NCBI GenBank assembly: GCA_963855995.1
Contig: OY979716.1
Coordinates: 87,018,173 to 87,082,172 of the forward strand
Reading direction: 5' to 3'
Origin: Muricea muricata
Taxonomy: Eukaryota > Cnidaria > Anthozoa > Malacalcyonacea > Plexauridae
Length of the DNA: 64,000 nucleotides
Both the position numbers and the translations under genes were made by a program. Below the pieces are notes generated by a model. The model was not told the origin of the DNA and searched no databases. It saw nothing but the letters and a program-made list of their open reading frames with translations. Position 1 is the first letter of the stretch. Every line of letters starts with the position of its first letter. Shown here piece after piece: positions 14,390 through 45,064 of the stretch.

Positions 14390-14490
14390 TGCCATGAAGA
14401 AATGAAAATGAACTTCTTGGTCCTAATCAAACGCATGCATCTAAATTCTATGAAGCTAGTATCCAGGAGATAATTGAACGAAACAGAGCA

Positions 14491-20309: not shown

Positions 20310-21242
20310 TCAATTGTTTGTACTTACTGCTGAATTTGCAAAGAACCACTGTTGATTATAGGACAAAAGCACCTTGCATTCATTGATTATGGATGCTGAA
20401 CTGGACAAGAACACTGTTCCACAAGTACAACATGTTATGAGTAACTGTGAGCCACCACTGCAATCTATCTCCCCTTTACAACAGAAGCACTTGTATACAG
20501 CTTTGAAATCTTTAATGGCTAGCACATCACTTTCCACTGAGGAAATCAAACTTCGCTTTCGGCCTGGTTGTCTTCCTCCAGCTGGAACATTTATATCCTT
20601 TCCAACTTTTGTTATAGTTGATTCAAAAGCTGTTGTCAACATTATATTGTTATTAAATGTTGTTGTGACATCATTGACATGAAAGTTAAACTTTACAGCC
20701 CTTTCTTTCCACAGAACCAGAGATATAAACCCAGATTCATCTGCCAACTTGACATCTCTCTTTTCCAAAATGTTCGGATGCTTACCAACTACACACACAT
20801 CTTCTACACCAATCACTTTCGCTGTTACATCAATAAAACGGTGTCGCTGGCATTCTTTTTTTAGTCTTTGAGCAATATTAAATGACTGATTTTCGATCTG
20901 AAATTTATCAGCTGCTTCCTTTATGATAGTAGCGTTATCAATCATAACTTCAACATTGCCACTATTTGTGTTGAATGCCTTTTTCAATTTAAAGCATTCT
21001 ATATCATAGCTTTGTTTTGTTGAAAACTGCTCAAACATGCTTTCTTCAAAGCACACTGCTCTTATACAGGAAGAAGGATCACCTTCACATAAACTCATTG
21101 TAAACATCTGACCATTTTTGGTGGGTTTTAGTGGACTCTTCGTCAACACAGCACAATGCAGTGTTTCTCGACATTTTTGGGGGGACTCAGGTGGTTTTTG
21201 CTCCTTCAGAGACTTCACTGTCACCTTGGATGATGAAGACAT
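20310..21242 (-). CDS. RPA1-like OB-fold / zinc-ribbon protein, first exon
   Basis: The frame starts at an ATG at 21242 and runs 310 codons. A Ser/Lys-rich leader is followed by two OB-fold-like stretches ('GQMFTMSLCEGDPSSCIRAV' and 'DVTAKVIGVEDV...VKLADESGFISLVLWKE'). Next comes a basic segment ('GGRQPGRKR') and a four-Cys ribbon 'CFCCKGEIDC...CCTCGTVF'. This order resembles the DNA-binding part of RPA large subunits and of RPA-like proteins in some transposons, so ssDNA binding is the likely role. Near the end the sequence GCA|GTAAGTA (exon end 20328) is a strong splice donor, so the last few listed codons are probably intron and the gene continues leftward. Whether it is a host gene or transposon cargo is not resolved. 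No frame breaks are seen, unlike most neighbours. Confidence 0.6.
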   Translation of the reverse strand: MSSSSKVTVKSLKEQKPPESPQKCRETLHCAVLTKSPLKPTKNGQMFTMSLCEGDPSSCIRAVCFEESMFEQFSTKQSYDIECFKLKKAFNTNSGNVEVMIDNATIIKEAADKFQIENQSFNIAQRLKKECQRHRFIDVTAKVIGVEDVCVVGKHPNILEKRDVKLADESGFISLVLWKERAVKFNFHVNDVTTTFNNNIMLTTAFESTITKVGKDINVPAGGRQPGRKRSLISSVESDVLAIKDFKAVYKCFCCKGEIDCSGGSQLLITCCTCGTVFLSSSASIINECKVLLSYNQQWFFANSAVSTNN

Positions 21243-23854
21243 TTTGATTGTGTACTATAAAAATTAAGAAAATTTGTTCATATCTTTCTCCTTGGCAGTC
21301 CAAAGAGCTCTGGAAGTGATTATTTTGCCTGATTTATTTGGTTTTGTATGACCAAAAAAGGTCTTGCAGGTAATTTTCCCTTAATATTATGCAAAACACA
21401 TTTGTTATACAAAAATTTGGCGAAACAAATTATATTTCCAATGTTCCTGCCAAACATGGCTAAAGTTTCAACTACTATAATGTTCATTTTTTGCCAAAAT
21501 TTTCTTGATTTACCCTAGTTTGAAAATTCTAGGCGGACAGCTGTCCTCCCCAGTACTTTTTCAACTTTTCTTCATTTTAGCATTATGCTTAATTTAAGTA
21601 TTCAATATCTTTACAGTCTGGCACCTGACTGCCTTCAAGGTTTAATGTTGGCGAATATCAATTCGCATCTCCTTTTCTGATTCGCAATTAACACATTTAT
21701 TTGCTGAAAGCCCCCTCAAAGGAGAGAGTTGCAAGTCAATCACTGGTACATGATGTATGTGTAGTGTAAGTTAATAAACACGATAGTATGTGAAACAATT
21801 ATTGAACGAGTAGGATATGAGGAATTATTAAGGCAGAAGTTTGTGTTATCTGCCAAAGCCAAAGGCTGACACAGATAACACAAACCGAGGCCTTAATAAT
21901 TTCTCATCCTACGAGAACCGATTTCAGTAATTGTTTTATTACTTATTTGTATTTGCAAACTTTTCCTTGAAAAAGTTATTTCTATTTTAAATTTTGGCAT
22001 AAGCAGCATAAATTAGTGTGACGTAATAAGGTCGTATAACTGTTTTCAATATAGGAACAAATTACATCATAATGTCATATATGTGTTTTCAGTATTCTAT
22101 GATGATGTCATAACTCCAAATTTTGGCTACTACCGAACGGATATGACGATTTCATCCATCGCTCTTAAAGAATCAAAACTTTTGAATTGTTTTCAATAAA
22201 TAATAATAATATTTCATTCGAGTAATACCAGACTCGCACAGACTCACAAAACGTCAGCTACTAAATTAAAGAGGGGTTACAGTCCGTTCTGTGCATCGAC
22301 TCTACTCATAACAAAGGTGGGCCACCAAATATAAACATTGTCCAAATTTCGCATTTTTCGAACTCTTTTTGAATTGAAACTCTGGTTTACATTCATTTAT
22401 AAGCATAGCAAACTAGAAAAGTGTCAGATATTCATTTAGTCAGTCATATTTTACAAATATACAATTTCAAAATGTAAATAAAGCGTTTGTTTACATTACA
22501 CCAAATATTTTGACAACAAACTATTCTTATTTTAAAATTTAACTAAATCGATACAATCTACCCTATTAAGACAAACTGATTAAAAAAAACACTAACCTTT
22601 CTCGTAAAACAGAACCAATTTGTGGCTGTTTGACTCCAACACAACCAGTTGACCACGTGAAAGATGCAAAATGTTATTACCTGTTGATTCTTTCTTGATC
22701 CATCAAGATCCCGCCAAAATCCCTGACAACCTCTCTTCTCTTAATTATAAAATCAGTGACCTCCATATATATCTGGAGTGATATAAATCTGTATTTACCT
22801 CGATTAAACTTTGATAAAACCACCCTGGCCGTACTAGAAATCCCAAAAATTATTAAACGCCGCGGCGTTTATTGAAGTAAATACAGTGTGGTTCATGTTC
22901 CTATGACATGCAAAAATCATAAAGACCTTAGTGTAGGAACGCGAAGCAAGTGTACTATTTAACCCTGGGGCTCCCAGGATCGACGTTGACAGGCCAGTGT
23001 GAACGCCTGACCGGGCGTCTTGTTACATTTAATTTTGCCATGTGTTACTGAAGGTAGGGACGCTAAAATATATGTTTTGTATGCAAGCAGGCATGTAAGC
23101 ATTCCATGGATATTTATTTTGAGTATGGCTTGATAGAGGTATTTATACAGCATTGTGTCTGCAGTTTGAAGTTCTGCGGCGGTGCGGGACATAATTTGAG
23201 AGCCCGACCAACTATCTCGCAGCCGCGTCCCGGAAAGCATATAAAAAATCATTGGCGAATCTGCATGTATTAAACAGTGAACTCGAAATTTTGATATCTA
23301 AAATGATAACCTCAACCAAAAATTGAAGCTGACAAAAAAATCACGACATAAGTATTCGTCATTGTATTTGTCATTATTCGCCATTGTTCACCATATAAGG
23401 CAACTCCTTTGGCAGAGGGGGAATGAAACCAACGTCCAATTCGTGTAAACTCAACGTTTGAGGGACTGGAACTGACGTCCAATCCGCGTAAGACTGGTAC
23501 CGATGCTTCATTTTTTCCCTATTGAATGACTGAAGGTTATCATTCCAGTTATCAGATTTCGAGTTCACTGGTATTAATTTACACCATTTGAACATAGTTT
23601 ATTTCTTTATAGCCCTAGAGGCGAGTTTACACCTTTTTTATAAATACTTAAGACATATCTGGCGAGAAAAGAAAAAACACAGTCCAGTATGCAGTCCTTG
23701 TCCGTAATTGTCCAAATTTGGTGCCCCCCTCTCCCCCTTGGATGTCCAGCATGCTTTGAAAATGTATGCAATTTTTGATTTGTCATTATAATTTCACTAA
23801 TCCTTCTCAAAAACACAACTTTTTATATAACTAATATCAATATAATATCAGTGA
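21243..23854. other. No gene seen; holds one foldback repeat
   Basis: Mixed non-coding sequence. The palindrome at 21793-21937 is listed separately. The short minus-strand ORFs at 22959-23816 have no recognisable motifs and are not supported as genes. Confidence 0.4.
21793..21937. repeat. Foldback (MITE-like) palindrome
   Basis: The arms read 'AAACAATTATTGA...GTTTGTGTTATCTG' and, reversed, 'CAGATAACACAAAC...TCAGTAATTGTTTT'. They are separated by a short GC-richer centre (CCAAAGCCAAAGGCTGACA). Each arm is about 60 bases with few mismatches. Confidence 0.75.
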
Positions 23855-24051
23855 CAAAAAACACAGCCTCAAATTGTTCTTGGAAAAAACTAGTGTTACT
23901 GACAACCTCGACTGGCCAGACAAATGTGCAACGAGAACCTCTGATAATATCATATTAATATACAAATATGAGCAGAAATTTAAAATCTCATGAGCATTTT
24001 AAACATCACCGTCGCTCTGTTAAGTTTACAACTGCAACATACAGATTATCA
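23855..24051 (+). repeat. Left copy of an inverted repeat pair flanking the LINE
   Basis: This 197-bp stretch is about 80% identical by eye to the reverse complement of 26821-27010. Landmarks are 'AAACTAGTGTTA', 'ATCATATTAATAT', 'TTTAAAATCTCATGAGC' and 'GCAACATACAGAT'. The pair encloses about 2.8 kb. Confidence 0.7.
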
Positions 24052-24873: not shown

Positions 24874-26580
24874 TTATCGTGTTTTCAAAAGGTTCTTAAA
24901 GTTAGATAACGAAGTTGCGTCTTTTAGTTTCTGTTCCAAGTTATTGAAATCCACTATAGCTTGATATGTTGGACGTTGTCTTCCTTTGTTAGTCTTTGCT
25001 CGTGGTAGATGCAGATTGCTACGTTGTCTTGTATTGTGATGATGGATGTCTTCATTCTTTGTTAAGTTAAAATCAAAGTCAATTAAGCCATGCATGCATT
25101 TGAAGATGAATGTGCATCGGTGATTATGCCTTCTCGTCGCCAGTGTTGACCATTTAAGTTCTTGTAACGCCTCGGTCGAAGAATATCGCGGATGTTTATC
25201 CAAAATGAGCTTTGCAGCCTTGTTCTGAAGCACTTGAAGCGAGTTCATCAATCCCAGATTGTTCTTGTCACCCCAGATCACGTCACCGTAGTCAAATAAG
25301 GGTAAAACTAGTGATGTGTATAACATACAGCGAGTGTTCAGATCTAAATAATCCTTTATTCTTCTTAATAACCCGAGTCTTTGGTTAATCTTCGACATGA
25401 TATTGTCAACATGTTCATGCCAAGTTAAATCACTCGTTAGAGTTACACCAAGATATTTAAGTGATTTTTCTTGCAATATTTTCTTAGTTTGGATACAGAT
25501 ATCTACAGTGGAAGCCAGGGTTGGTTGTTTTTTGTTAGCGAAGATCATAAATTTGGTTTTCTCGTAATTCAATGTTAGGAGGTTGTTGTTTAGCCATTGA
25601 TTGAGTGAATTCAGATCCTCGTTGATTTTATCCTGTAGTTCAGTTTCTGTTCTGGCAGTGTAGTAAATTAAAGTATCATCTGCATACAGAATTGATTTGC
25701 AGTGTTTCAAACATTGGGGCAACTCATTGATAAATATCAGGAAGAGTAGTGGCCCTAGGATACTTCCCTGAGGCACACCCACGGTTACTGGTTTTGGACT
25801 TGACGTGATGTTGTTAATGGATGTAACAGCTGTGCGTAAAGATAAGTAGGATGAAAACCAATTGATAACAGCTTCCGAAAGTCCAATGTGCTTTAATTTT
25901 CTTATTAGAAGGGTGTGATCCACTGTGTCGAAGGCTTTTCGTAAATCAATGAAAACTGCACCGGTATTTAATTTGTTTTCCATATTGTACAGAATTTCCT
26001 CCGTGACCTGGGTCAAAGCAACATTTGTGGATAAGTTCGGGCGAAAACCAAACTGCTCTGAAGTGATAAGTTTGTGTTCCTGTAGATACTTGTAGATTTG
26101 TCTATGAACAATGCGCTCCATAATTTTGCTTAAGGTAGGTAAAATAGTGATAGGTCTGTAGTTGTTTGGTGCTGTTGGGTCGTTGCATTTGAAGAGGGGA
26201 ATGATTTTTCCTCTTTTCCAAATATCAGGGAACGTTTGTAAGGCGAGCGAGGCATTGAAAATCTTCGTTAAACTGGAGGCAATGGTAGAAGCTGAATCTT
26301 TTAAGAGCTTGGCACTGATTTGGTCAAGTCCAGTTGCTTTATTAGTTTTCAGAAATGAAAGTTCTTGATGGACAAATGTTTCGTCGACTTCTTCAAATTC
26401 AAAACTGGAGGGCAAGTTAGTCAAAGGTGGATGTGGTTTAGATTGGAATGTACTCTTGATCTTATCTGCCAGTTTTGACCCAATAGACGTGAAGTACTCA
26501 TTTAGGATTGTTGCCATAGATTTTTGATCAGTGGTAATTTTATCTTCAGAGATTATACACGACGGACTTGTTTCTGACAT
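24874..26580 (-). CDS. Non-LTR retrotransposon reverse transcriptase, 5'-truncated
   Basis: A 568-codon intact minus-strand frame carries all RT boxes: 'KATGLDQISAKLLK', 'WKRGKIIPLFK', 'YRPITILPTLSKIMERI', 'FIDLRKAFDTVDH', 'GVPQGSILGPLLFLIFIN', the catalytic 'YADD' and 'KYLGVTL'. A C-terminal region of about 180 residues follows ('HNTRQRSNLHLP') as in CR1/L2-type elements. The endonuclease domain expected upstream is absent, so the copy is truncated at about 26580, as is common after incomplete reverse transcription. The tail is an A/T simple repeat. The long intact frame suggests a relatively young insertion. Confidence 0.92.
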   Translation of the reverse strand: MSETSPSCIISEDKITTDQKSMATILNEYFTSIGSKLADKIKSTFQSKPHPPLTNLPSSFEFEEVDETFVHQELSFLKTNKATGLDQISAKLLKDSASTIASSLTKIFNASLALQTFPDIWKRGKIIPLFKCNDPTAPNNYRPITILPTLSKIMERIVHRQIYKYLQEHKLITSEQFGFRPNLSTNVALTQVTEEILYNMENKLNTGAVFIDLRKAFDTVDHTLLIRKLKHIGLSEAVINWFSSYLSLRTAVTSINNITSSPKPVTVGVPQGSILGPLLFLIFINELPQCLKHCKSILYADDTLIYYTARTETELQDKINEDLNSLNQWLNNNLLTLNYEKTKFMIFANKKQPTLASTVDICIQTKKILQEKSLKYLGVTLTSDLTWHEHVDNIMSKINQRLGLLRRIKDYLDLNTRCMLYTSLVLPLFDYGDVIWGDKNNLGLMNSLQVLQNKAAKLILDKHPRYSSTEALQELKWSTLATRRHNHRCTFIFKCMHGLIDFDFNLTKNEDIHHHNTRQRSNLHLPRAKTNKGRQRPTYQAIVDFNNLEQKLKDATSLSNFKNLLKTR

Positions 26581-26662
26581 ACAGCAAAGGCAACATTATT
26601 CAGTTGCCTTTGCTGTGGTGTTACTAAGGTCGCTGGTAACACCACGGCAACGGCAACTAAAT
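26578..26662. repeat. Short palindromes at the truncated 5' end of the LINE
   Basis: ACAGCAAAGGCAAC faces GTTGCCTTTGCTGT across an 8-base loop. Next to it GTGGTGTTAC faces GTAACACCAC, followed by GGCAACGGCAAC. Two adjacent hairpins lie exactly at the truncation point. Confidence 0.65.
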
Positions 26663-26820: not shown

Positions 26821-27010
26821 GTGATCATCTGTATGTTGCATTTGTAAACAGAGCAACAGGGATGTTTAAAACGCTCATGAGATTTTAAATTTTGCTCATA
26901 TTTGCATATTAATATGATTTTATCGGAGGTTCCCGTAGCACATTCATACGGGCAGTTGAGGTTCTCTATAACACTAGTTTTTCCCAAGGGCAATTCAAGG
27001 CTGTTTTTTT
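26821..27010 (-). repeat. Right copy of the inverted repeat pair flanking the LINE
   Basis: Reverse-complement partner of 23855-24051. Together they may be terminal inverted repeats of an old 3.16-kb element (23855-27010) that later received the LINE and a MITE, or two independent insertions in opposite orientation. Confidence 0.65.
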
Positions 27011-27120: not shown

Positions 27121-27128
27121 TACTATTC
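27121..27128. repeat. Left target-site duplication of element A (TACTATTC)
   Basis: Perfect 8-bp match to 33618-33625. It abuts the outer end of the left terminal inverted repeat. Confidence 0.8.
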
Positions 27129-27325
27129 TACGGTGGCCCACAGCGGCAACACAGATATATATTTAATTGTAGATATTTTAATTTACTAAACTGATATATA
27201 TTTCCAATACGACATATATATCTTAGATATTACAAAAATATATTTCCAGTACAAAAATATATTTCCAGTACAAAAATTTCCAGTACAAAAATATATTTCC
27301 AGTACAAAAATATATTTCCCATTGG
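27129..27325. repeat. Left terminal inverted repeat of element A
   Basis: Reverse complement of the right end (33330-33617). It contains about five tandem 'TTTCCAGTACAAAAATATA' units. The first coding ATG (27367) lies about 40 bases further in, so the promoter probably overlaps the repeat. Confidence 0.85.
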
Positions 27326-27366
27326 GAAAGTTACAAAAAGCACATGTTGCACACATCCAGTTCAAA

Positions 27367-30300
27367 ATGGCGGAACACCAGACATCTCGATTACTAAACA
27401 AACAGTCTACCATGAATTTTTGCTCAAACTGTGCGTTTCATGTAGAAAAAAGTTACCGTTTTTGCCCAAAATGTGGTGAGGGCATAAAAACAAATGGAAT
27501 TTTAGACCATAAAAAAGAGCCTGAAACTACATCGACCGACAAAAGTTGCAGAACAAGCAAATTCACGTTGCCGAGGTTTGCTCTACCAAGTTTTGCCGCA
27601 TTCAAATCACCGAAAAAAAAAGAACGACAAAGTCTTTTTTTTGAAAAAGAGTGGGGGGCGAAACAAAAAACGAAAAGTTCAGACAAAGGAAGTTACTATT
27701 CAAGTTGGCGTATTGGATGACTTCCTGAAAATTAAACGTGGTGAAACCATTCCTTTAAAAGTTAATTCACTGGCAACACATGAAGAAATCCTTGCAGCGG
27801 CAATAAAGAAACATGGTGATTTCAATAAGCGTTTTTATATCGAAGGAAACTACCAGCTAGTTTTTAAAGATGGAACCAAAGTTAATTTTATTCCAGGGAC
27901 TGATCCTCCTGAATCTTTTGTACTTCAGCGCTATAAAGATTTATCAGGATTTGGATTTTCGTGTATAGTTTTGTAGCTTTCCCCTAACAGTCATTTCACC
28001 GACAGTGATAATGAAAGTGCAGAAGAGAATGATATCCTACCGCCAGCTACCTGGCTAACCAGTAGCAATGATTATGCAGTGGTGACTGGGCATGAAGTAG
28101 TTGAATGCACAAACAATATAGGTGGTCAAGGTAAGAGTAAACAGGCAAGTAGGTAAAAAGTAGGCAAGTATAAAAATGGATATCAATCAATGTAAAAAAA
28201 ATAGGTTAAACTTCTTGAAGAAATGTTACTGATATAGATATTGAAAACAAGTTGTGTATACTAGTCCGCAAACAAGCAGTGGTAACTTTCACCTGTTCTC
28301 TCATGAAAAATTGGTAAACTTGATGTGACTCCTGTTAGCCAATTAGATTTCACTTCAGGTCATATTGTCCAATCAAAATCACACAGGAAGTGCAGAGAAA
28401 CGGGTCAATTTTCAAGTCTTGATTAATTTTCAAGGAAACTGTTAATTTTCTATTAAATGTTATCAAACCTTAAGATTCAAATTTGATGTTTCACATATTA
28501 TTATTTTGTTTAACAGTAATGTTACCATTTTTAAATCCTTTTGTAGCAATTTCAAACGAAGTCATTGAAACAAAAGATTCCATGTAAGTCCATGATTATA
28601 ATCAGACAAAATGGTGAATGAATCACCAACTATATGTACTTGGCAGTAAGTAACATTGCTGGACAGGATTTTGTAAAAGACACCTTTTTACTTGAAAAAG
28701 TCTTAAAATTTTAAAGATGACATAAATGTGTTTTGCTAACAAATTATACTCCATGTTATTCATTTTGTCAGTATATTTCCTTTTTACACAAAGGATACCA
28801 CAGACATCTTCAGGAATTATGCACCATGACCCATGGATACTAGTTGAGAGTGATAGTAGTGATGATGAAGAAGTTGTGGGGGCATCAACCTCAAAGGACG
28901 TTGAAAGGCAATGTGAACTACTCACTAGGCTTTTTAGAGTGTGCATGCTGACTGTATTGTGCTGTCATAGTGCGGTTTATAATGACGATCTTCTAGACAG
29001 GATAGAGACTTTTAGACGTCAATCAATCATTTTTTGTTAGGGATAAAACTCCTCCTTGTGATGAAGTGTTGGATGTGGCAACTCTATTAAGAAATCACAT
29101 CACTACCACCGTGTTGCTTACCAAGACTGTTGTATTTATCATCCGGAGATCTAAGCCCTGGAAAAGCTTTATGAGGGAAATGATGCAACATAAGGTTGAT
29201 GATTCTATGGATTTTGAGGTATTTATTTCAAAATTTTCATTGTAATTGCTGCAATAAAGTCTATTTTAACAGAATTATTACAGTAAAATCAGAAGCGCGG
29301 TCAAATGTCTGCGTGCCTATGTGCAAAAACATCATTTTAAAGACTGAAATTAGCATATTTTTTGAAGCTCTAACAAAACGTGTACAGTCAGCTGAAGCAA
29401 ACTATGAGATTGAGAGTGTAAACTCAGTATAAGCTCGTCTTGATACAAAGAAAAAGCTGTGAAATTCACTACCAACAATATATCCACTAAATGCTTTACT
29501 TTTGATTATATTTGTTCGTATTGTTTTGGCAAACAATTTTCCGCCAATTCCACATACTCGCGCATGGGCGAGATCTTTGACTGAGGTTTAAAAATTGGAT
29601 TTTCTGGCTGATAAATGTAATATGTATTGCGTGTGTGTTTTAATTTAGGTGAAGTTCACAGACAGCATGCAAACTGTGGATGACCATGGACCCAAACGTG
29701 ATTTCTTGCGACTACTCAGGAACGTTCTTGTTGAATGTTGTGGCATTTTCCAGCAAACTGGGAAAGCTTGGCATATGTCTTGACACATGACGCACAAAAG
29801 TTGCAAAGCCACGAGTACCATATGGCTGGGAGAGAATTTGCAATAACGTTGATTTTTGGAGGTGATCCTCCTTGTGTTCTTTCAAAATCAATTTATAGCT
29901 ACATGACTGTTGGCTACGACAAGACAAATCCATCTGTCGAAGAAGTTCCTTATTTAATGCATAGGATGAATCTCATGAGGGTAAGTTATAAAAACACATT
30001 TTAAAAGTAAATCTCACACTCGTCAATAAATAATGATCTTTTTTATGTGCTTTTTATTAGCTCATGGGAACTGAAAGTCAAGAAGAGCTAGATGCAATAT
30101 CAGAGGAAGAATCTGTAGCTGATCTTATTCTTGATGCAGGCTATCAAAATCTGTCCTTGAAATTTGATCACGTGAAATCAGTAGTTGACAGCGTCGTCAA
30201 GCACTTAGTGATTGGAAGGTGCAGGTAATAAAATGTGTTAAGAGTGAAGAATACAAATTTGAGACATACATCCTAAAGAGTGTCGTAATTTGTATGAATT

Positions 30301-31367
30301 TTGAATTTAGGAAATATTTTTGCGTGTTGCACGAGCTGTCAGCTCAATCTACCTAGTACCTACCTATCTGTTTATGTAGAAACAAACCTGAAGAGTTTTG
30401 TCAAGGATTACAACATTACAAAATGTTGGAGCTCATCAGAGCTCACATGCTTTCATTTCTTTGCGTTTTTGTTCATGGGGAATCGATGGTGGATCCAGTG
30501 TGTGCAAATTATATCATTGATAAATTTGTACCACAATTCAGTGATGCTGGCTCGAACAGACGGGAAAAAGAGGAAGACATTTATGATTTATGGGTGTCCT
30601 TTGTCCGAATTACATCAGGTTGCTTTTTCAATATCTAATATACGTGATATTCGTTACTTCGATATTAACATTGATATGGGCTATAAAGTTTATATTTTTC
30701 AAGCATATATTTATTTTGGTTATAAAAGCTATTCAGTTTTATAGATATTGCAGAAACCAAAAATTATGTTATCATAGCATGGTGTCATCTCATGATACGC
30801 TTTCTGGTTTGGCATAAGAAATAATAATACAATTTTTGGTTTGTACTTTTTTTGGGCAGGGGTTATTTTTAATAACCCTTTGATTAAGAAAATGAAAACC
30901 TTGAGGAAATATGTCACCTTAATTAGGATTAATTATATAACCATAAGTATTTTATAGCAATTGTTCTTGAGACCAAAAAAAGTAAAAGCTGCCATATTGT
31001 TTTCGTTACTATTCACACAGGACCATTCAGATTGCAGAATAACTCAAATACGACGTCATTATTCTAGAACATAATATGTATTAACCTTTAATTCATTTTA
31101 AACTTTTTTAAACAACCAAAGGACATTTTGCGTTTTGCAAGTGGCTCCGAACTGAAACCATTACTCGGATAGGGTGTGGGCAAGTCTCCTGCACTAATGT
31201 TTATTTCGGAATATGAGGAAATGGACCCGTTACATGAATCAAAGTTACCTCAAGCAAGAACGTGTGGGCCTACCATTTTGTTACCAACTGCCTTGTACAG
31301 CGATTCCGACTTAAATGATAAGATGACAACTGGCATTGTTGGTTTACCTCAAATCTTACTTGCTTGA
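27367..31367 (+). pseudogene. HECT-domain E3 ubiquitin ligase gene of element A (multi-exon, decayed or mis-sequenced)
   Basis: The first exon (27367-28130) encodes a zinc ribbon 'CSNCAFHVEKSYRFCPKCG', a basic stretch, and a beta-rich domain beginning 'EVTIQVGVLDDFL'. Further exons by GT-AG borders are 28547-28583, 28794-29218, 29649-29981, 30061-30224, 30380-30618 and 31122-31367. They encode an acidic linker ('ESDSSDDEEVV') and a HECT fold: 'VDDHGPKRDFLRLL', 'EYHMAGREFAITLIFGGDP', 'DILRFASGSELKPLL' and the catalytic box 'LPQARTCGPTILLP' (Cys codon 31263-31265). HECT enzymes take ubiquitin on this Cys and pass it to substrates. Breaks are one-base shifts at T-runs (27635-27642, about 29027) and near 29755, and in-frame TAGs at 27974 and 31170. 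The layout recalls G2E3-like HECT proteins of cnidarians. Confidence 0.75.
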
Positions 31368-32116
31368 TAAAATTTAAAAAAACTTGCAGAAAACTTTACA
31401 CATGCAGACTCGGTCTTGGACACATTTATGTTACAAATACTAGGATGTTTACGTTTACATTTTGTTGTTCAAACAATAAAAATATAAATATCACAGTGCT
31501 AATAAAGAATAGGGGGGAGAAGCAACTTTTGCGAGTAGTAGCGTTGCCAGCCCTACGATTTAGTCTATGCGAATATCTTTGTGTTCATTGACAGTAAAAA
31601 CAATGAATTTCTATTGACTGTAAAAAACACAAGTCAAAATTTGCATAGCAGGACTAAATTGCCTGACTGGCTACATCACAACTACGTCACTTTATTAAAA
31701 TAACCCAAAACACTCGTATAAATAGACCATAATGAGGTCACCGAAGTTCTAAATACCCATTACGATGACAACAAAAGGAAAATGGCTCGCTAAAAGCTAC
31801 ACGAAAAGCCTTGCTATTTTACTTTGGACTTGCCTTAGTCGTGAACGAAGCGTTTTTACGAGGTTTTCCCGCCTAAAATTGGCCGCGGCCAATCTAAGAC
31901 GAGGCCCGAACCCTGGGCAAAAATTAGCCACGGCTTATTTTAGTTGCAAAGACATTGTATGTTTATACAAACGTTCTCGACTTATTTAAGCCGCGACCTA
32001 TTTAAGCCGCGGCTTGTTTTCGCTTGTATAAATGGCCCTATTATCCAGTTTATATTGTTTATGCACAAATGTACATGGTTATATATTTCCACCGTGTGGT
32101 TCTTGAATAATTATTC
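31368..32116. other. Convergent intergenic region of element A
   Basis: No ORF supported. It contains a GC-richer patch at about 31880-32030 with repeated TTTAAGCCGCG units and short palindromes, perhaps a small inserted repeat. Confidence 0.4.
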
Positions 32117-33301
32117 TATGTTCCGTTTGCAATTGCCATTAGAGTGAAGTACAACTGCTCGGCTTCTTGCCAATTCACTATTTGGAGTAAACCACCATTT
32201 TCAAATATGTGCTCGAAATACTCTTGTACAAGGTTTTGCTCCTCATGGAATTGTAAAAGGTTCTCTTCTACATAACTAGATGTGATCATCAGCCAGAGGC
32301 ATTGCTAGGTTCTCCACACCACCACTCTTTTCTGGAAAATAATACAACTCATCAGGTATTCCTGAGATTGTCTCGTGTTTTGAATCTCGAATCCTATGAG
32401 TATTCCATTGCTCTTTCACGTAGTCCAAGTCTTTTTGGATGACATCAGAAAAGCATAACCAAAGGCACTCGCTTTCAAGTTCATTGTGAGGGCTGAAAAT
32501 ATTTCTTTCACAGAGATCTTTAAAATAGTTGATCCACCAGGTGGAACGATTCTTTCTGAATTGAGACCACCAACTTTCAATTCTTTGATTGGTTGGCGAT
32601 GTTCCGTAAAAGTGGGCATTAGCTTGTGAACGAAACCGGCATTGCATGGCTGCCATAATGCCATTTTCTGTTCCACAATCGCTGTGCAACTTCACTGGAC
32701 AGCTGTACAATTGCACACTTTTTAGAAAAAACGAAGCAGGAATTTTGGGTCTGTTGTTGAACCGAGCAACATGTAGCCATATTATCTTTCGGCTCCATCC
32801 GTCAATACAACCATGTATTGGGAAGCCGTAGGGCTTCAGCTTATCATAGCCGTCTGTATGCCAACAGTAATTAGGACCAGGGACGCGATATGTTCTTTTC
32901 CGTAACCGTTTAGCGCACCTAGACTGACAGCCTTCGGGGTTGAGCTCCCTCAGTTGTTGTTCAACCACATGCCTCGGAATTTGTAGCCCTTGCGTTCGAA
33001 GAGCATGCCACATGGAGCGGTAGCCTCCCATATTACCGAGACCGTTCAGTAATTCTTGCATTGCTCTGTGTACATCGTTAATATCGTAGCTTGGAGATCG
33101 CCTTCGAAGACCATATTCGTTCAATCGCTTCCGCAACGTCCGTTCCGAAATAACTATACTGTGTCCTTTTCGGAGGAAATCGATAATACTTTTATACTGA
33201 AATCCTCTTGAAAAGTAGTATTCTATTAAACTTTGTTCAGTAACTTCGTCACTATCTGAGTCCGAATCTGAGAGGTGATTATTGTCTATATTGTCAGCCA
33301 T
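32117..33301 (-). CDS. rve-fold integrase/transposase of element A
   Basis: A 341-codon frame starts at an ATG at 33301, beside the right terminal repeat. The N-terminus is acidic (D/S run), followed by a helix-turn-helix-like segment 'GHSIVISERTLRKRLNEYGL'. The catalytic core has D1 in 'CWHTDGYDKLKPYGFP', a following 'GCIDGWSRKIIWL' strand, D2 in 'LHSDCGTENG' and E in 'NQRIESWWSQFRK', the DDE arrangement of rve integrases and IS3-like transposases. The listed frame stops at 32276. However, the homologous copy (37400-37837) has a longer C-terminus, and its counterpart is readable here one base out of frame to about 32117 ('LVQEYFEHIFENGGLL'). So the stop is probably a single-base lesion in a dispensable tail. 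Role: cutting and joining element ends. Confidence 0.85.
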
Positions 33302-33329
33302 GTTTTAAACATGTTAAAGAAAATATGTA

Positions 33330-33617
33330 TGTTAAGAAATGTATTTTATATGGCAAATATATTTTTGTACTGCAAATATATTTTTGCTCTGGAAATGTAT
33401 TTTTGTACTGGAAATGTATTTTTGTACTGAAAATATGTTTTTGTACTGGCAATTTTTGTACTGGAAATATATTTTTGTACTGGAAATATATTTTTGTACT
33501 GGGAATATATTTTTGTAATATCTAAGATATATATGTCGTATTGGAAATATATATCAGTTTAGTAAATTAAAATATCTACTACTAAATATATATCTGTGTT
33601 GCCGCAGTGGGCCAGTG
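33330..33617. repeat. Right terminal inverted repeat of element A
   Basis: Contains about eight 19-bp tandem units of the type 'TTTTTGTACTGGAAATATA' and ends GTTGCCGCAGTGGGCCAGTG. The innermost unit is within about 60 bases of the integrase start codon. Confidence 0.85.
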
Positions 33618-33625
33618 TACTATTC
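33618..33625. repeat. Right target-site duplication of element A (TACTATTC)
   Basis: Perfect partner of 27121-27128. Confidence 0.8.
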
Positions 33626-33654: not shown

Positions 33655-36600
33655 GATATCTCCAAACCTTCATCCAGCAATTCTTCTGTAGAAAAACCTT
33701 GTTCATTTGAGGCTTATCGCAAAAGGAAAGAACAAGATCGGTCATCAAAATTCAAACTGAAATCAGGTGGTAAACGAACAAAGGCCTGCTGAGAAATTAA
33801 AATCCAAGTTGGCCTTGTGAGAGATAAAAATGATGATGGTGTTTTGGTAGAAGTAAAGTCAAGAACGATAACTCTTGATGAAGATAGTGATGTTGATGCA
33901 CTATTAACAAAAGCTGTAGAGAAGCATGCACACCATCATAAGCAATTTGATGTGGATTGTAAGTACGGCCTTTTATATCATGATATGTCCATGGTACAGA
34001 ATCTACCTCAAAGCAACACACCATTTGTTTTGTTCAAGTATCGGAAAGATTTGCGAATTCCATATTCAAAAATGTATTTCTGGTTATACCCACAGCTGAT
34101 TTTGAAAGCTTGTTGTCCGATGAAAGCTCTGACACAGACGTTGAGATGATACATGTTAAAGGTGCTGCAGAACGAGAACAGTGGCAGCCCTGCACATTCA
34201 AGTTTTACTCTATCCAATACCACCAAAAATAATAAAACTCAAGATGATGTCGGACAAGGTACACAATTGCCATCAAGTGAAGTCTCTGCAGTGCATCCTC
34301 CAAATGTTTCAAGCAGCTCATCATCCTGCTTTGATCAACAAGGATCCATCGAAAATTATTTGCTTTCCCATCAGTGTCCCACTTGCCTTGCTTTTTTTTC
34401 ACGAACTGAAATTGAGGTTCATGCTGAAGTGTGCAGAGAATTGGATTGATCCTGTTGGTGAGTGTGGGGATTTTAGTGATGGTCATGAAGAAACTCTTAC
34501 TGCTGATGAATTGAGCCCTTTTAACTGAACTAAGACAGAATGTTATCGAGAAAATCAAAATTAATGTCAAAAGAACATCAATAAACTGGATAACAATTCG
34601 AAGACGGGAAGCCTTTCAAGATTACTTGAATTCCAATAGAAAAATGGTTTACAGAAGGAGCAATTCTTAAGATCAATTTTGCAGGTGAACCCGCAGTCGA
34701 TGGTGGTGGGCCAAGGCGAGAGTTTTTTACAGGTAAGACTTATGAGTACTACAAGTGTTTTAAATTATATCTTTTGAGTTTCTCCAATTTTTATAAGCTT
34801 CACGTCTAACGCAATCATGTTAAATTCCATGTATTCATCATTTATTACCCCATGCTAAAACATGTTGTGTATACTGTAAGCTAATATGTGATAACCTTTT
34901 TCTGTAGATGTTTTGCAGTACATCAAGTGCACATTGTTTGATTCGAATGGATATGCATTGATCAACACGCGAGCACTGGCAAACAATGAATTTAAAGTGG
35001 CAGGTAAATTAATGGCTTCATCGCTGGACCAAGAAGAACCTGCACTGTGTTTGTACAACTGGCTGGAACATGTGGAAGACAAAAGGTTGAAATTGCAGAT
35101 TGAAGTGTGTATTACAACAGTACTGTCTGACTGCATCATAATTACCACAGAATACAGCTTTAGTGAGTCCCGTGGCGAAGAAGTGACAATTTTTTTTTGA
35201 CAATGAGCCTTTTCAAAATGGTGTCCACACTAGCAAGCATCAATGTTTATTGTTGAGAAAAACTTGACGGGAAGGACGTACACATAAACAACTTTGCTGT
35301 TTGAAAAGCTGGCACATTCAGATTTTGAACAAGGCTCCTTGTCAAATAAGAATTGTCAAATTTTTGCTGTACAGATGGGCAAATAATACTCGTCAAGGAA
35401 AATGTCTAAATGATGTAACGATAGGTGATTGGTCATTGAGCGACCAAGAAAAAGACACGTGGGACACATGCTCAAATCAAGGGAATTAGAACAAACTGGG
35501 CTTTTGTCATAAGGGAAATTAGATTAGCAAATGAGTAACTCGGTTATAATAAAAAGAAATAAATGTCTAAACTAGAAAACATGATCGTTTTTAATGCAGT
35601 ATCTTTACAGATGGTTTGTTGGTTTAAACGTTACATGCTAGATTGAGGCATATAATTTGGAATTGCAAATCCACAAATCGAAAATTGTTGATAAAATTCT
35701 CTTCTGATGCCTTAAAATTCCTGATTTGACATGCCTGGTAACTTTGAACAAGAGCTAAAAAACAGTAAAGATGAAATTTGTCATAAATGAAATATATAAA
35801 ATATATTGAATCTTAATTGAAATTTACAAGCTGTTAAAATTTCCATGTGTCCACTATAAGCAGTATGAATCCCTGCAATGTTCCAGTGCACCCAACTTAT
35901 TTTAGACGAACAATATTACTTGTCAATAGGGAAGCCCTGCTGCTTAATTGGACATGTGCACATACATTTACCTTCTCATGCAGTCCTAGGCATATGGTAT
36001 TACATAATTTATTGTTGAAAAACTTTGATATTTCAGGTTATTATTTGTTGTATTAATTATTGTACCTGTAGCAAGACTGTCAGAAAGGGAAGTTTGTATC
36101 CTTAATTTTGGAACATCAGTTTCAGTTGAAGAGCTGCAGAGATGATGATGAGCTAAGGACAATGCTTTATGAAGATGACACTATGGATGTTCTCCAGTCA
36201 ATTGGGTACAGAGGTGTTCCATCAAAGGAAACTTTACATTCACGGGATGAAATTATTCGGTATGTACTACAAAACACAATATCACACAAATGTCCATACA
36301 ATGTGTGTCCATACAAATGTACATCAAAACTGAAGAACCGCTGTATTATATAGTATGCTGTACAGAGAAAGACTGTCTTGTAAATACTACGCATGACACT
36401 CATGCCTGCACATAAGGCATATTTATACTGATGTTGCAGTAGCTGTTATAATTACTCATTTCAGTATTAATAATCAAGCTTTTAAATGTCTTTCAGATCA
36501 CTAGTGATTTCAGGAATGAGCCAGATGCTGGGAATGATGGATCAGCTGACTTCTGGTTTTATGAGCTTTGGAGTGGTAGAGCAAATAAAGCAACACACAG

Positions 36601-37148
36601 AAGTCATGGCAAGTATGCTCACTTTAGAAGGTGCTGCTAATTTTAAGCTGATTTCCGATATCATGTTGGACAACCTTACCGTAGAATTTAGTCCTGAAGG
36701 AAGCAACAAGAAATTTCCAGAAATTAATATACACAAGTACTACTGTGATTATGTTCAAGAGGTCGAAACTAGAGAAGGTAAAGACCTTCACAAAGTTTGT
36801 TTCTTCTTTTTCAGGCACCAGTATTGACACACTGCTCAAAGACATATAGACAGAACAAAAAGTAAAAATTCATTGCCAGTCAATTGTTTGTTTTCATAGA
36901 TATGAACAGTGGATTATCAAGGCTCTACCACTTCATTACAGGAAGCAAAACTGTAACTCCACTTGGAGCCGAAAAGCATATCATCCTGAAATTTAAGCAT
37001 GGATGTCCTGCACAGGGTAAATGCCGTCCAACTGCTGCAACTTGTGACCCAAGCATCACATTCCCGATAAATTTTAATGAAACAAAGGGACTTTGAACAG
37101 GCGCTGGACACTGCGCTAGAAGAGTATTCGGGATTTGGCCTTGTGTAA
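33655..37148 (+). pseudogene. HECT-domain E3 ubiquitin ligase gene of element B (multi-exon)
   Basis: Divergent paralogue of the element A ligase. After an AG at 33654 the first visible exon has a basic stretch and the beta-rich domain 'EIKIQVGLVRDKNDDG'. A C-C-H-C finger 'CPTCLAFFSRTEIEVHAEVC' (about 34375-34435), resembling a RAD18-type ubiquitin-binding UBZ, follows. The HECT fold begins at about 34535 ('INVKRTSINWITIRRREAF', 'FAGEPAVDGGGPRREFFTG' ending at a GT donor at 34734). It continues in exons at about 34908, 36075-36259, 36499-36778 and 36900-37148. The catalytic box is 'CRPTAATCDPSITFP' (Cys codon 37043-37045) and the end reads 'ALEEYSGFGLV'. A TGA at 33790, a stop near 34668 and at least three frame shifts break it. 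The 5' exon with the zinc ribbon is not found where expected. A possible start, ATGATGGCAGAAGG at about 27050, lies left of element A. Confidence 0.7.
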
Positions 37149-37399
37149 TTTACTATTATGCCGTCTTATCACATGTTTTCCCATGGAAATACTCGCATGC
37201 AGATTTAAGTTTTGTTTTGTTTATGTTGTAGGTGGGACACAAATTCAAAGTGTATATTTTGTTATTGTATTCATGTTTTCTACAATTTACCTAAAGGCCT
37301 GTTCACACAGGCAATTTTTGCAGCAATTTTTTACGATTTTTTATTGTTTTAACCTAACTGAATTCACCAAAAATGGATATGTGTACAAGCAATAGTGTG

Positions 37400-38735
37400 T
37401 CATGCATGACTCATCAGGACATCAAACATTTGAACAGCCTCGTTATAATTTGATGGACATTGCAGTTCATAAAACTCCATGAGATAGCAAAAATACTCCT
37501 GATACAATTGATTTTCATCTTCTATTTCTTCTCTTTGAGTGCATTCCAGTTGAACTTCTTGCAGCTTCTCATTGGATACTGGAACACAGCAATCAAATCC
37601 TCCAAACTCGTCTGGGATTGTAAAAAAAATATCTGGCACTCCAGCTGTGGTTTCATGTTTGGAAGACCTTATGTAATGTGTATCCCAGTATAACCGCACT
37701 TCATCAAGAGAATCTTGCAGGACACCATTAAAAGAAAACCATAAGCATTCTTTGGTGAATTCATCACATAAATTCAATTGCTTCTCTTTCACCAAAAATG
37801 TAATCCACCAACTTGAACATGCCTTTTTCAAACACAACCACCAAATTTCTATCCTCTGGTTATGGTGAGAGGTTCCAAAAGAATGAGCTTGTTCCCCTTG
37901 AAATGGATAATCATCATTAGATCTAAAATAGCATTGTGCAGCAGCAAAATAGCATTGTCACACCATTCTCGGTACCACAATCAGTTCTCGTCTGCAGAGG
38001 ACAACCTTTATGGTGTCTCACGCAATCCAAATAAAGCTTTGCAACAGTTTCTGGTGAATTATTTGACTTTGTCACTTCCACCTAAAGAACTTTTCTGCTA
38101 AAACCATCTACTGCACCATGGATAGGGAAGCCAAATGGCTTCAACTTATGAGGGATTCCCCATATAACTATAATGAAGTAAGGTACTGGCACGCAGATGT
38201 AAGCACTAAGGGGGGCGGGGCAGACTAAGGACCAGAATGACTGCCCCCTTGCCTTTGCCAGAGAGGTGGGGTAAAAGGTGACCTTGACGAAGATGAAGCA
38301 TTTCTCCTTAATGCAATGACTGGTAAGCAGGTAAGTGCATAAAAAATATATTTTTCTTCTCTACGATCACTTGCTTCTGGGTCCAAATTTTTTAGGATTG
38401 TTGCTAATAGCTTCCGTGGTACATGCATGTGGTGCTTCAGCCGCAGTATATCCACATTCTCCTGTAACCGGCCAAACAACCTGCCACCCCTTGCATTTCC
38501 TGCCAAATTAGATTTCTAATGTATTCCTGATTAAAGTTTCCATCCTCTTCCAAGTCTACTCGACATGACAAATTGTACAAGTTCAGACACTTTTTCAGTG
38601 TTTTAACTGACATTTCTATTCCATGCTCACTTTTCAGAAGGGAAACAATGTGATCATATTTTCAGCCATGGTTAAAATAGCTCTCTGACTTTCTGCTCCT
38701 TGTCTATAGGATAAATGAACGCCTTATACACATGG
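37400..38735 (-). pseudogene. rve-fold integrase of element B (frameshifted)
   Basis: Aligned by eye with the element A integrase across its length. An HTH-like 'YDHIVSLLKSEHGIEM' (about 38660) is followed by 'CLAGYRRMW', 'HMHVPRKLLATILKNLDPEA', 'KPFGFPIHGAVDGFSRKVL' (about 38110-38160), D2 'TRTDCGTENG' (about 37965-38000) and E 'NQRIEIWWLCLKK' (about 37815-37860). The clean C-terminal ORF 37400-37837 ends 'YNEAVQMFDVLMSHA'. The D1 segment (about 38150-38200) is disrupted, and extra sequence (about 38215-38380) interrupts the middle. It cannot encode an active enzyme as written. It shares the convergent orientation with its HECT gene. Confidence 0.75.
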
Positions 38736-39407: not shown

Positions 39408-40302
39408 TTGTCCACCAAAGTGTTGCATCTCCTGTTGGCACAGCAAAACCTATCCCTTTCTCAGTCGCATTACACTCTTCTACAACGCCTCGTCAACCAC
39501 GACAGAGCAGAAAACTCTGTCGTCCCAGCACCCTCTGAAGCGGCACAAACAAGCACGACACCTACCTGTACCTCACAATTTTCAGCTGAGTCTCTTTGTT
39601 CGCTGACCTCTGATCTCGCACCATTGCTCCGAGATGTCCTAACGCACAAGAATAATTCGTCACAAATCCCGCCAAACCACCCACCACCGCCAGAAGATTT
39701 TCCCATGCCAACGCAATCCTTGGACCTTGGCAATCCTTTGCACGTTGCTGCTTTAATATCAACACCAGCTACACCGCCTGTTACGAATGTCTCTTCGCCA
39801 CTGGATACTTCAAGTCTGCCCAAAAAACTTGAGGACCAGATCTCAAGCGGTGAGCTTGTTGACTTTACTTTGCTTCTCCCGGTAATTCAGACTGCCCCAC
39901 TTTTGGTCCAATTCGCCTGTCAGTCAAAGGCGATCAGGAATTCTCGATACCTATTCCGAATTTTTCAAATTTCGGCCCAAAACTGACAGTATCGATAAGT
40001 GGCTTACAGTGTTTGGCATCCACGCGTTGATTGTTGTCGAAAAATTTCCACGTGAGGCGTCGCAGTTCTTTGCTTACCAGCACATAATCCGAAGCCTCGC
40101 AAAAGTTTAAGGGTTTACCATGGTATTCTTAGACATAGCCTTTCGAAAACTTGCCGCTAAAAACCCAGCATTAAATTGGGGAGAACGCCATCTCCAGCTT
40201 TGGCTAGATAAGTTTACTGGACTTGCGCTATCAATTTGTTTCGTTTGCAGCGGCGCAGATCATCTTTCTGATTTATGCCCTCTTTCCTCATCAAGGTTAT
40301 GA
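39408..40302 (+). pseudogene. DIRS-like element Gag region
   Basis: A 192-codon Ser/Thr/Pro-rich frame (39408-39986) is followed in shifted frames by 'LTVSIDKWLTVFGIHALI' and 'WLDKFTGLALSICFVCSGADH'. The latter ends in a CX2CX4HX4C zinc knuckle (about 40224-40280). This fits the Gag that precedes RT in DIRS-like elements. At least two frame shifts break it. Confidence 0.65.
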
Positions 40303-42064
40303 GGTAACCGGCCACGCTTGTCCAACCAACGTGCCTTCTGCCGCAATTTCAATGGGGGAATCCCACGCGCAGAGAATCCATGTCCCTTCACACACCGCTG
40401 TAACTATGGAGACTGTGGCAGACGACATGGCGCCTATGAACACAATGATGCCAGCGCTACACAAACTGACACTTCGCATGGCAGAAAACACAAGTAAAGA
40501 TTTTGTTGACAGATTAAAACCTGTTACACCAATTAATATTAATTTACTTGAGTGTATGCTAGTTGACCACCCAGATCGTGAATTTGATGTTGGCCTCTGT
40601 TCGGGTCTGAGAGAGGGTTTTAAAATTGGTTATCAAGCCCCCCATCAGCCTCATGTTTCAAAAAATCTAAAAACTGTCTACATGCTGCCGGAAATAGTTG
40701 ACGGCAACCTACTCGAGGAGGTCAAACCGGGTCATACTATTGAACCCTTCACTCAGCCTCCTTTCAAAAATTTCCAAATTTACCCCCTGGGTCTCTTCCC
40801 TAAGAAGATTTCATCCAAATGGAGAACAATTTTTCACTTGTCTTATCCCAAAACCTTGCACACTAGCATCAACGCTAATATTTCTTCCAAAGATTTCTCT
40901 TCACAATATGTTTGCATCGACGAGGCTATAAGAATCCTAAAACTAGGCCCAAATTGCTTTATGGCTAAAACACACGTCCAATCTGCGTTCCAAAATATCC
41001 CAGTACATCCTCAGGATTGGGAACTTCTCGGCATGCAGTGGCGTGGTTTATATTTTTTCGATCGGGTATTGCCTTTTGGCCTCCGCAGTACCCCTTTGAT
41101 ATTCAATATACTTTCGGATGCCCTGGAATAGATTCTTATACAAAAATTAGGCGTTTCCAATGTTCTCTCCACATCCTGGACGACTTCTTCCTGGCGGAAG
41201 CTGGGACCGATGCCTCTTGCTCGACTTTACTATGCCACCTGCTGTGCCTTTTCACTGAATTAAATGTTCTGGTGGCCCCTGGGAAAATGTCCTGGTTTGC
41301 CCCTAGCCAGTCCTTAGAATTCCTTGGGATTACTCTGGACTCTGTATGCATGTTGGCTTTACTTCCTACTGATAAGCTAGACAGGGCCAGGTCTCTTCTC
41401 CAAACTTGGAAAAAACGCCCCTCTTGTCAGTTAAAGGAACTCCAGTCCCTGATTGGAATTCTCCAATTTGCATGTCGGGTTATTGCCCCGGGTCGCACAT
41501 TCCTTCGTCGCTTGATTGCTCTCACCTGCGGCATAAAACAACCTTATCATTTCGTCAGATTAAACCAGTTTTTATAAGGACCTATCTATGTGGGAGGTTT
41601 TCCTGACCAATTGTAATGGTATTAGCCTTTTTCTCAAATCGGAACAGACGCCATCCCTGTCACTCCAGCTATTTACTAACGCGGCAGGGTCGATTGGCTT
41701 TGGTGGTTATCTAGAAGGCCAGTGGTTTCACAGCCACTGGTTACCTGAACAAGAGATTATTAAAACAACCGGCATTTCGATCGCCTGGCAAGAGCTTTAT
41801 CCTATCTATCTTGCCTGTTGTCTCTGGGGTTCCCAGTGGGCAACTAAATGCATTGTGTTTTTCCGTGACAACGAGTCCGTCGTTCAGATTTTGAATCAAA
41901 AGACGTCAAAATGCCCAAAAATAATGGATTTACTGGGTCCAATTACTGGGTCCTTTGCACGCTGCGACACAACTTTACGTTCACAGCAAAAAATGTACGC
42001 GGCCTCAACAATGGCATTGCTGATTTGCTCTCTCGTTTTCAGCTGGATCACTTCAAACAATTAG
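40223..42064 (+). pseudogene. DIRS-like reverse transcriptase and RNase H
   Basis: Overlapping frames at 40223-41131, 41017-41577 and 41588-42064 carry consecutive pieces. RT appears as 'LGLFPKKISSKWRTIFHLSYP', 'PVHPQDWELLGMQWRGLYFF', 'LPFGLRSTPLIFN' and the catalytic 'LDDFFLA' (about 41180), then 'LEFLGITLDS'. RNase H follows: 'LQLFTNAAGSIGFGGYLEG', 'WQELYPIYLACCLWG', 'FRDNESVVQIL'. The 'LDDF' box and the tyrosine recombinase downstream place it with DIRS-type rather than LTR elements. One early Asp motif reads 'FMAKTHVQSAFQNIP', where the usual first-box Asp is replaced by His, so the enzyme is probably dead. Confidence 0.8.
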
Positions 42065-42459
42065 CACCATTGGCCTCTCTTCTGCCTTGCATCATCCTGT
42101 CATCAATGATCCAAACTTAAAGAACCGCGTTCACGAGCTTATTCCAAATTCGTGGGCCTCATCGACCAAACATACATATGCATCGCGTATGAAACAAATC
42201 ATTTTATTCTGTCTGTCGAAAGGTATTGTGACACCCCGTTCGCCTTTACTGCCTGCGACTGAAATTACTCTGCTCTATTTCATGGGACATTTATCCAAAA
42301 CAGTTTCCTATGCAACAGTAAAAACTTATATGCCTAGCATCTCATACCTCCATGTAATTTTCCAAATCCCATTTAACATGGGTCACATGCAATTGCCTGA
42401 AAAGTGTTTGAAGGGTCTGAAACGCCTCAAGGGAGAAAAGCTGAGGGATCGACGACCTA

Positions 42460-42468
42460 TTACCGTAA
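42460..42468. repeat. Left 9-bp target-site duplication (TTACCGTAA)
   Basis: Identical to 44476-44484. It lies in the recombinase frame of the DIRS element. Confidence 0.9.
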
Positions 42469-44475: not shown

Positions 44476-44484
44476 TTACCGTAA
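44476..44484. repeat. Right 9-bp target-site duplication (TTACCGTAA)
   Basis: Partner of 42460-42468. Confidence 0.9.
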
Positions 44485-45064
44485 AAGAGCTTAAATTCCT
44501 CCATGCAGCATTACATCCCCAATTTACGGATTCTGTAGACAATGTGATGCTCTGGGCTGCCTTTACCCTGGCCTTCTTTTGGTTTCTATGATGCAGTGAA
44601 TTTACGTGCAACTCCCCATTCGACGTAACCTGCCACCTTTCCCGAACTGACATCATTTTCCACCCCAGCATTTTACATGCTGCATCCTACAACATTATTA
44701 AACGTTCCAAAACCGATCCGTTTCGTCACGGATGCCATTTCACCATTGGATCCTCTTATAGTGAACTTTTCCCTGTACGGGCTATGAAGACCTATCTCCT
44801 CCAGTCGCCGTCGGAACAAACACTCCACCCTTTGTTTAAATTCAAGTCTGGTGACCCGCTTACGCGCACCACACTAATGTCACATTTACGCTGCTTGCTT
44901 CGAGACTATGGACTAGATGGGAAACTCTACGTGTCGCATAGCTTCAGAATCGGAGCTGCTACGGCCGCTGGCTCACCCAGACTACCTTCTTGGCTAATTA
45001 GGACACTGGGTAGTTGGACATCAGACTGTCATGAACGTATATTCGAACTCCCAAGGAGGTTTTA

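Follow-up and report, generated by a model that had tools for sequence, protein, structure and literature searches.

A decayed IS3EU-type transposon of the octocoral Muricea muricata with a HECT ubiquitin ligase as its probable second core gene

A 64,000-nucleotide stretch of the Muricea muricata genome (contig OY979716.1, positions 87,018,173 to 87,082,172 of the forward strand; hereafter the window, whose own numbering is used throughout) contains a DNA transposon of about 6.5 kb, here called E1, which spans positions 27129-33619 and bears both a DDE integrase gene and a gene for a HECT-type ubiquitin ligase. We consider it highly probable that E1, now decayed, represents a two-gene element of IS3EU type and that the HECT ligase is a core gene of such elements rather than a stray passenger, because most of the relatives examined carry the same pair. 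The termini, inverted repeats and target duplication of E1-type elements fit the IS3EU type as described in published accounts, an assignment made on these structural features.

The inverted ends of E1 (27129-27277 and 33471-33619) are 149 nt long, with 143 matches (96% complementary). The left tip reads TACGG and the element as a whole runs from TAC to GTA, giving TA..TA termini, while each end holds an array of 19-bp tandem units. The long inverted repeats, matching tips and internal tandem units described in the first-pass annotation of this DNA are thus all present. That annotation had also placed perfect 8-bp duplications, TACTATTC, outside the ends; identical direct repeats do lie there, but the 8-bp word consists of the 6-bp CTATTC together with a TA that precedes the left copy and, on the right, the TA that closes the element. 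The duplication was read as 6 bp because other loci show differing 6-bp duplications with TA..TA ends. Likewise, the complete element formerly drawn at 27129..33617 is one two-ended transposon, but it ends at 33619 and both of its genes are damaged. A search for an empty site with the joined flanks of E1 returned only the two flanks themselves. The start codons of both genes are found less than 50 bp from a repeat array, that of the HECT gene 47 nt inside the left array and that of the integrase 34 nt inside the right one. The features of E1 are as follows:

27123..27128, no strand: left target-site duplication CTATTC (sequence, boundary scripts)
27129..27319, plus strand: left terminal inverted repeat (tip TACGG; 19-bp array at 27231-27319)
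27367..31367, plus strand: HECT ligase gene, damaged (tblastn of P0121, splice sites)
27421..27474, plus strand: zinc ribbon with two CxxC pairs at the N-terminus of the HECT protein (matches to Pfam zinc ribbons, none reaching its cut-off, best E=1e-5)
29649..31367, plus strand: HECT domain; QARTCGPTILLP near its C-terminus holds the candidate catalytic Cys
32119..32274, minus strand: C-terminal tail of the integrase, in another frame than the core (52 residues aligned with P0001 in tblastn, 77% identity)
32279..33301, minus strand: DDE integrase/transposase, open core of 341 aa (Pfam PF24764, homologues, DDE positions)
33336..33619, minus strand: right terminal inverted repeat with 19-bp array at 33336-33517
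33620..33625, no strand: right target-site duplication CTATTC (sequence, boundary scripts)

The open core of the integrase matches the Pfam family rva_4 (PF24764) with E=2e-36 and offers D150, D208 and E242 as candidate catalytic residues. A homologue from Dendronephthya gigantea, P0003, is 83% identical to it. In the Pfam comparison, the rva_4 match was strong and that to the IS3-type HTH_21 domain fell below the cut-off. A frame change near 32277 puts the 52 conserved C-terminal residues out of frame, so that the DDE core previously called intact is indeed open beside one end of the element but is severed from its own tail. A PDB sequence search with the E1 integrase gave a single weak and irrelevant match, and viral contigs searched with P0003 and with an integrase alignment yielded no relative.

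The HECT gene matches the D. gigantea protein P0121 exon by exon in tblastn, with exons placed by eye at about 27367-28130, 28547-28583, 28794-28907, 29041-29218, 29649-29980, 30061-30224, 30380-30618 and 31122-31367; the boundaries were taken from splice sites, some being moved by one or two bases by eye. Compared with P0121, the reading frame shifts twice (near 27.6 kb and near 29.77 kb), and in-frame TAG codons stand at 27974 and 31170. What looks like a third shift, around 28.9-29.04 kb, would be better read as a GC-AG intron, judging by the splice sites and the P0121 alignment. The spliced HECT gene reported earlier beside the other end is therefore multi-exonic and correctly placed but broken in this copy; it is a pseudogene, and E1 as a whole a relic. 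By Pfam HECT alone, E1 scores E=0.0012 and 19.0 bits, below the cut-off of 23.9, as does P0121 with 20.0 bits. We identify it as a HECT gene on account of P0121, of relatives that pass the Pfam cut-off and of a profile of the HECT catalytic C-lobe that was built without the family under test (threshold for open reading frames (ORFs), E<=0.05). P0121, named “G2/M phase-specific E3 ubiquitin-protein ligase-like”, is 55% identical to the E1 protein over the whole query and 69% identical in a separate alignment; Pfam HECT scored above cut-off in all six related HECT-lobe ORFs scanned, from six families, at about 29-32 bits; and the leave-one-family-out profile scored E1 at E=0.0005. Two protein searches for HECT gave 2 and 6 matches, and a second homologue bearing the same G2/M E3 ligase-like name is P0122 from Paramuricea clavata.

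Relatives of E1 were sought in the genome that contains the window (453 Mb in 74 contigs). The left end of E1 matches 19 places in it, and five further regions were retrieved for inspection. A check proposed alongside the first-pass annotation was whether copies with the same ends keep both genes: all four two-ended copies found, E1 and three others, hold the two in convergent orientation, while two one-ended loci, considered below, do not. The refuting case named there, copies with these ends but no HECT gene, did not turn up among complete copies. The other copies are about 94-95% identical to E1 at aligned positions and are also broken.

Beyond the E1 family, a genome search with Pfam rva_4 scored 150 of 1177 candidates, all 150 above cut-off, and 20 of the best-scoring 23 loci, which are not a random sample, were fetched. 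A HECT catalytic lobe was detected with the leave-one-family-out profile in 19 of these 20, so that the earlier remark that HECT ligases are not standard transposon equipment fails for these elements. Of the 26 loci examined (E1 and L010-L034), 18 have TA..TA ends flanked by a 6-bp duplication with no more than one mismatch. The two copies of the duplication agree fully at 16 of the 18 and show a single mismatch in L011 and L012; since L025 shares its duplication with L024, and L028 with L027, 16 of the insertions are independent. By profile, the HECT lobe is present in 17 of the 18 two-ended loci, L016 being the exception in this count and in that of the fetched loci; the match in L011 is borderline (E=0.049), and its HECT gene rests on tblastn. 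A stray profile match at 9285-9485 of L033 (E=0.011) falls inside a terminal repeat and is probably due to chance. In every one of 21 pairs checked, the integrase and HECT ORFs face each other from opposite strands; this set leaves out L011, L013, L014, L016, L025 and L028. The candidate catalytic Cys is kept in all 15 aligned families, counting E1 and the decayed neighbouring pair E2 described below; nine of the ORFs had been picked with a motif that contains this Cys and six had not. Outside the HECT lobe, a CUE ubiquitin-binding match scored above cut-off in L020 (3670-5130) and below it in L018 (3273-4406), and the HECT protein of L024 has a weak C2HC finger. L021 and L022 are 99.7% identical yet flanked by GAAAAG and TTAGAC, respectively, and L027 and L029 are 99.0% identical; near-identical pairs such as these point to recent movement.

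The pairing was also apparent across the genome. A search with Pfam HECT (PF00632) gave at least 139 matches. For at least 26 of the 150 integrases such a match lies no more than 6.5 kb downstream, always on the opposite strand; for 2 it lies upstream. Random placement produced a mean of 0.37 such pairs and a maximum of 4 in 2000 trials. When two element-HECT queries were added, at least 67 of the 150 integrases had a downstream HECT match, 66 of them on the opposite strand; in the single same-strand case another integrase lies close by. The corresponding random mean was 1.1 and the maximum 4 in 500 trials, the mean being somewhat low as only 26 downstream PF00632 matches of the 139 entered this test. 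A third element-HECT query found a partner for at least 17 of the 150 (17 opposite, 2 upstream), of which 10 were new when compared by hand, bringing the count to at least 77 of 150. The searches were weak: in the count of 67, 17 of the best 60 integrases were without a listed HECT match; six of these (L015, L016, L024, L025, L031 and L034) were among the fetched loci, and five of the six have a HECT lobe by profile.

The closest named homologues of the two E1 proteins come from octocorals, and the same association may extend to others of that group. P0003 and P0121 each lie on a 1,230,288-base contig of D. gigantea, the assembly of which comprises 286 Mb (PMC6447388). The presence of integrase and HECT homologues on one contig suggests that core-gene status probably extends to related octocorals. 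The D. gigantea and P. clavata models named “G2/M phase-specific E3 ubiquitin-protein ligase-like” are then probably transposon genes, with a name that reflects HECT similarity to G2E3. The transposase models P0029 and P0072 begin with a translated tandem repeat, which suggests that terminal-repeat arrays were read into the gene model. An rva_4 integrase (L001; E=3e-37, 29% identity) is found on a contig recorded as belonging to an uncultured Myxococcales bacterium, perhaps through eukaryotic contamination; this contig is too short to assess pairing.

Directly downstream of E1 lies a second, older HECT/integrase pair, E2 (33656-38685), in the same convergent arrangement:

33656..37145, plus strand: E2 decayed HECT gene (P0121 match at 33703-34086, ORFs, HECT profile at 36866-37093 with E=4e-8; exon start inferred)
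37403..38685, minus strand: decayed integrase of E2, converging on its HECT gene (tblastn; Pfam PF24764 on 37403-37957)

Pfam found no HECT domain in the pieces of the E2 HECT gene, which was recognised through P0121 and the HECT profile; in the whole window this profile matches at E1 and E2 only. The ends of E2 itself were looked for in the window and not found. E1 probably inserted into the front part of E2, since it terminates about 30 bp ahead of the first recognisable E2 exon. The surroundings hold further mobile sequences. A Helentron-type rolling-circle transposon occupies 13115-16833, where a weak Rep-like match is followed by a PIF1 helicase (E=1e-21) and, by eye, an endonuclease-like C-terminus; an ORF at 20313-21254 (minus strand) that weakly matches the OB domain of replication protein A is possibly a Helitron companion. 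Directly upstream of E1, a long open reverse transcriptase of a long interspersed nuclear element (RVT_1, E=1e-42) lies at 24877-26595 on the minus strand, and an inverted repeat of about 190 bp (26822-27010 versus 23857-24051, 83.6% identity) lies a little to the left of E1. At 40208-45065, weak reverse-transcriptase frames are followed by frames that resemble tyrosine recombinases by eye, perhaps from a DIRS/Ngaro element.

Integrase-like DDE enzymes are shared by E1 with Ginger1, Ginger2 and Polinton/Maverick elements. Polintons are much larger and carry a DNA polymerase; E1 measures 6.5 kb, and its Pfam-scanned ORFs show only integrase and HECT/zinc-ribbon matches, so it was not assigned to that group. 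The Polinton target duplication is likewise given as 6 bp (PMC10045372). The same source gives duplications of 4 bp and 4-5 bp for Ginger1 and Ginger2, which sets them apart from the 6 bp seen here (PMC10045372). IS3EU elements are described there as having TA..TA termini and, usually, 6-bp target duplications (PMC10045372), and E1-type elements resemble IS3EU and GingerRoot elements in both respects and in carrying a second gene opposite to the transposase (PMC10045372, PMC12730594). For TET-bearing IS3EU families of rust fungi, ends of the form TAYGG..CCRTA and terminal inverted repeats of more than 30 bp are reported (PMC12730594): E1 starts with TACGG, and other loci in this genome with TATGG or TATGA. 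In those fungal families, however, the opposite gene is described as an alpha-kinase, with TET between it and the transposase, where E1-type elements have HECT (PMC12730594). TET/JBP-bearing fungal DNA transposons are also alike in carrying a regulatory enzyme thought to be helpful in the host (PMC12730594). Helitrons and Helentrons with a VTD or OTU deubiquitinase, reported from cnidarians too, similarly carry an enzyme of the ubiquitin pathway, but one that removes ubiquitin rather than attaching it, and they differ in transposition chemistry (PMC9741609). In the open-access literature searched we found no transposon-encoded HECT ligase and no IS3EU element with HECT, a scope outside which Repbase reports and subscription literature may record one.

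What the ligase does can be approached through its relation to the integrase. In a Mantel test of 12 families, which leaves out E2 and L017 of 14, the protein distances of HECT and integrase are correlated (r 0.60, 0 of 5000 permutations). Groups common to both trees are L031 with L034 (support 100 and 100), L018 with L020 and L032 (82 and 96; L019 falls inside this group in the HECT tree) and L027 with L030 and L033 (97 and 81; L022 is added in the HECT tree), the remaining nodes being weak. A zinc-ribbon (CxxC) pattern like that on the E1 HECT protein is found at the N-terminus of 36 of 120 listed transposases. That the genes are paired and that all 15 families retain the catalytic-type Cys (nine ORFs having been picked by motif) speaks for the HECT protein being a useful enzyme; the co-divergence, the start of both genes at the same arrays and the occurrence of a zinc ribbon among the listed transposases, each of them circumstantial, lean towards the transposase as its partner. 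We propose that both genes would be expressed from the terminal repeats directly upstream of their start codons, that the transposase would excise and insert the element, and that the HECT protein of intact relatives would be an active E3 acting mainly on its own transposase or on the transposase-DNA complex. The outcome might be turnover of the transposase, control of its dose, or clearance of the complex such that the host can repair the gap. Effects on host silencing or repair factors, or on the stability of the integrase, had been put forward as possibilities in the first-pass annotation. For this combined model of a two-gene IS3EU-type element, terminal-repeat expression and a ligase directed mainly at its own transposase or complex, we judge the case to be evenly poised; that the ligase acts on the element's own machinery, taken as a separate claim drawn from sequence comparison, seems to us just short of evenly poised.

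Several observations weigh against this interpretation and against the core-gene status on which it builds. L013, a one-ended locus of the E1 family, has an integrase without HECT (L014, also one-ended, has neither gene), and L016, though two-ended, is without a HECT lobe; it is shorter, and by eye its partner frame resembles the front of the L023/L024 HECT protein. Of the 150 integrases, 83 are without HECT among the matches listed for the 67, the figure of 67 being a lower bound and not a rate of co-occurrence. A profile comparison of the N-terminal parts found no domain common to E1-type and other HECT proteins, and the zinc ribbon, a short and common module, is absent from all 21 integrase ORFs tested in this genome, E1 included. 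With all 90 measurable pairs of the 14 families, E2 and L017 included, the correlation drops to r 0.44; L017 is the visible misfit, and it is placed differently in the HECT and integrase trees with low support. Co-divergence would in any case be expected from linkage alone. The dN/dS ratios (non-synonymous to synonymous substitution rates) within the E1 family are 0.48-1.03 for HECT and 0.51-0.78 for the integrase, giving no clear selection among these relics. Among the 20 pairs with the closest integrases, 17 show lower identity in HECT than in the integrase, which would fit an arms race with the host too.

This last point belongs to the main rival explanation, in which the same two-gene element would aim its ligase at host silencing, DNA-repair or chromatin factors that otherwise block transposition, much as viral ligases ubiquitinate host factors. 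The regions outside the HECT domain, which vary by family (CUE in L020, the weak C2HC finger in L024, the zinc ribbon in E1), would suit such a role, and transposons with anti-host enzymes have been described, namely those with TET in fungal IS3EU and other elements (PMC12730594) and Helitrons with deubiquitinases (PMC9741609). On the other hand, HECT divergence tracks that of the linked integrase in 12 families, and in the sampled families HECT remains with its integrase, unlike the fungal TET, which moves between superfamilies: TET genes of PU-type transposons in rust fungi are reported to cluster by host genus and not by transposon superfamily (PMC12730594). We hold a host target to be a serious possibility, albeit a rather doubtful one. 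The HECT protein might instead be a structural partner, serving in targeting, multimerisation or ubiquitin sensing without any need for ligase activity. Pfam similarity that is low even above the cut-off, and CUE- and zinc-finger-like pieces that could bind ubiquitin or partners, would accord with this, but the candidate catalytic Cys is retained in every family aligned, including the six ORFs not chosen by motif, and we think such a role unlikely.

Two simpler accounts fare worse. HECT ligases are host-type enzymes and the gene in E1 is broken, as might be expected had E1 alone recently captured a host gene as a neutral passenger; yet the gene recurs, oriented alike, in integrase families with about 30% identity to E1-type transposases, and a HECT homologue sits on the integrase's contig in D. 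gigantea. Given this pairing across diverged families, recent capture was rejected as very improbable. Chance neighbours, nesting or an assembly error might likewise be suspected in so transposon-dense an area, with E1 beside or inside E2, but the ends, the duplications and both genes recur jointly at independent sites, near-identical copies such as L021 and L022 have different duplications, and the observed pairs (at least 26) far exceed the 0.37 of random placement. An origin of this kind is scarcely credible and was rejected.

Should HECT prove to be a core gene of this abundant superfamily, with at least 150 integrase loci in this genome, the element itself would link transposition in these animals to the ubiquitin system. 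As a tentative extension that we find somewhat doubtful, cnidarian IS3EU elements may be two-component machines in which a dedicated HECT protein, diverging with its transposase ever since the sampled families parted, is needed for transposition, for example to remodel or clear the complex, and many genes annotated as “G2/M phase-specific E3 ligase-like” would then be transposon genes. Core-gene status would also offer a direct test of whether ubiquitin regulates or dismantles eukaryotic transpososomes, and it would explain where some lineage-specific HECT gene models come from and allow such models to be annotated as transposon-derived.

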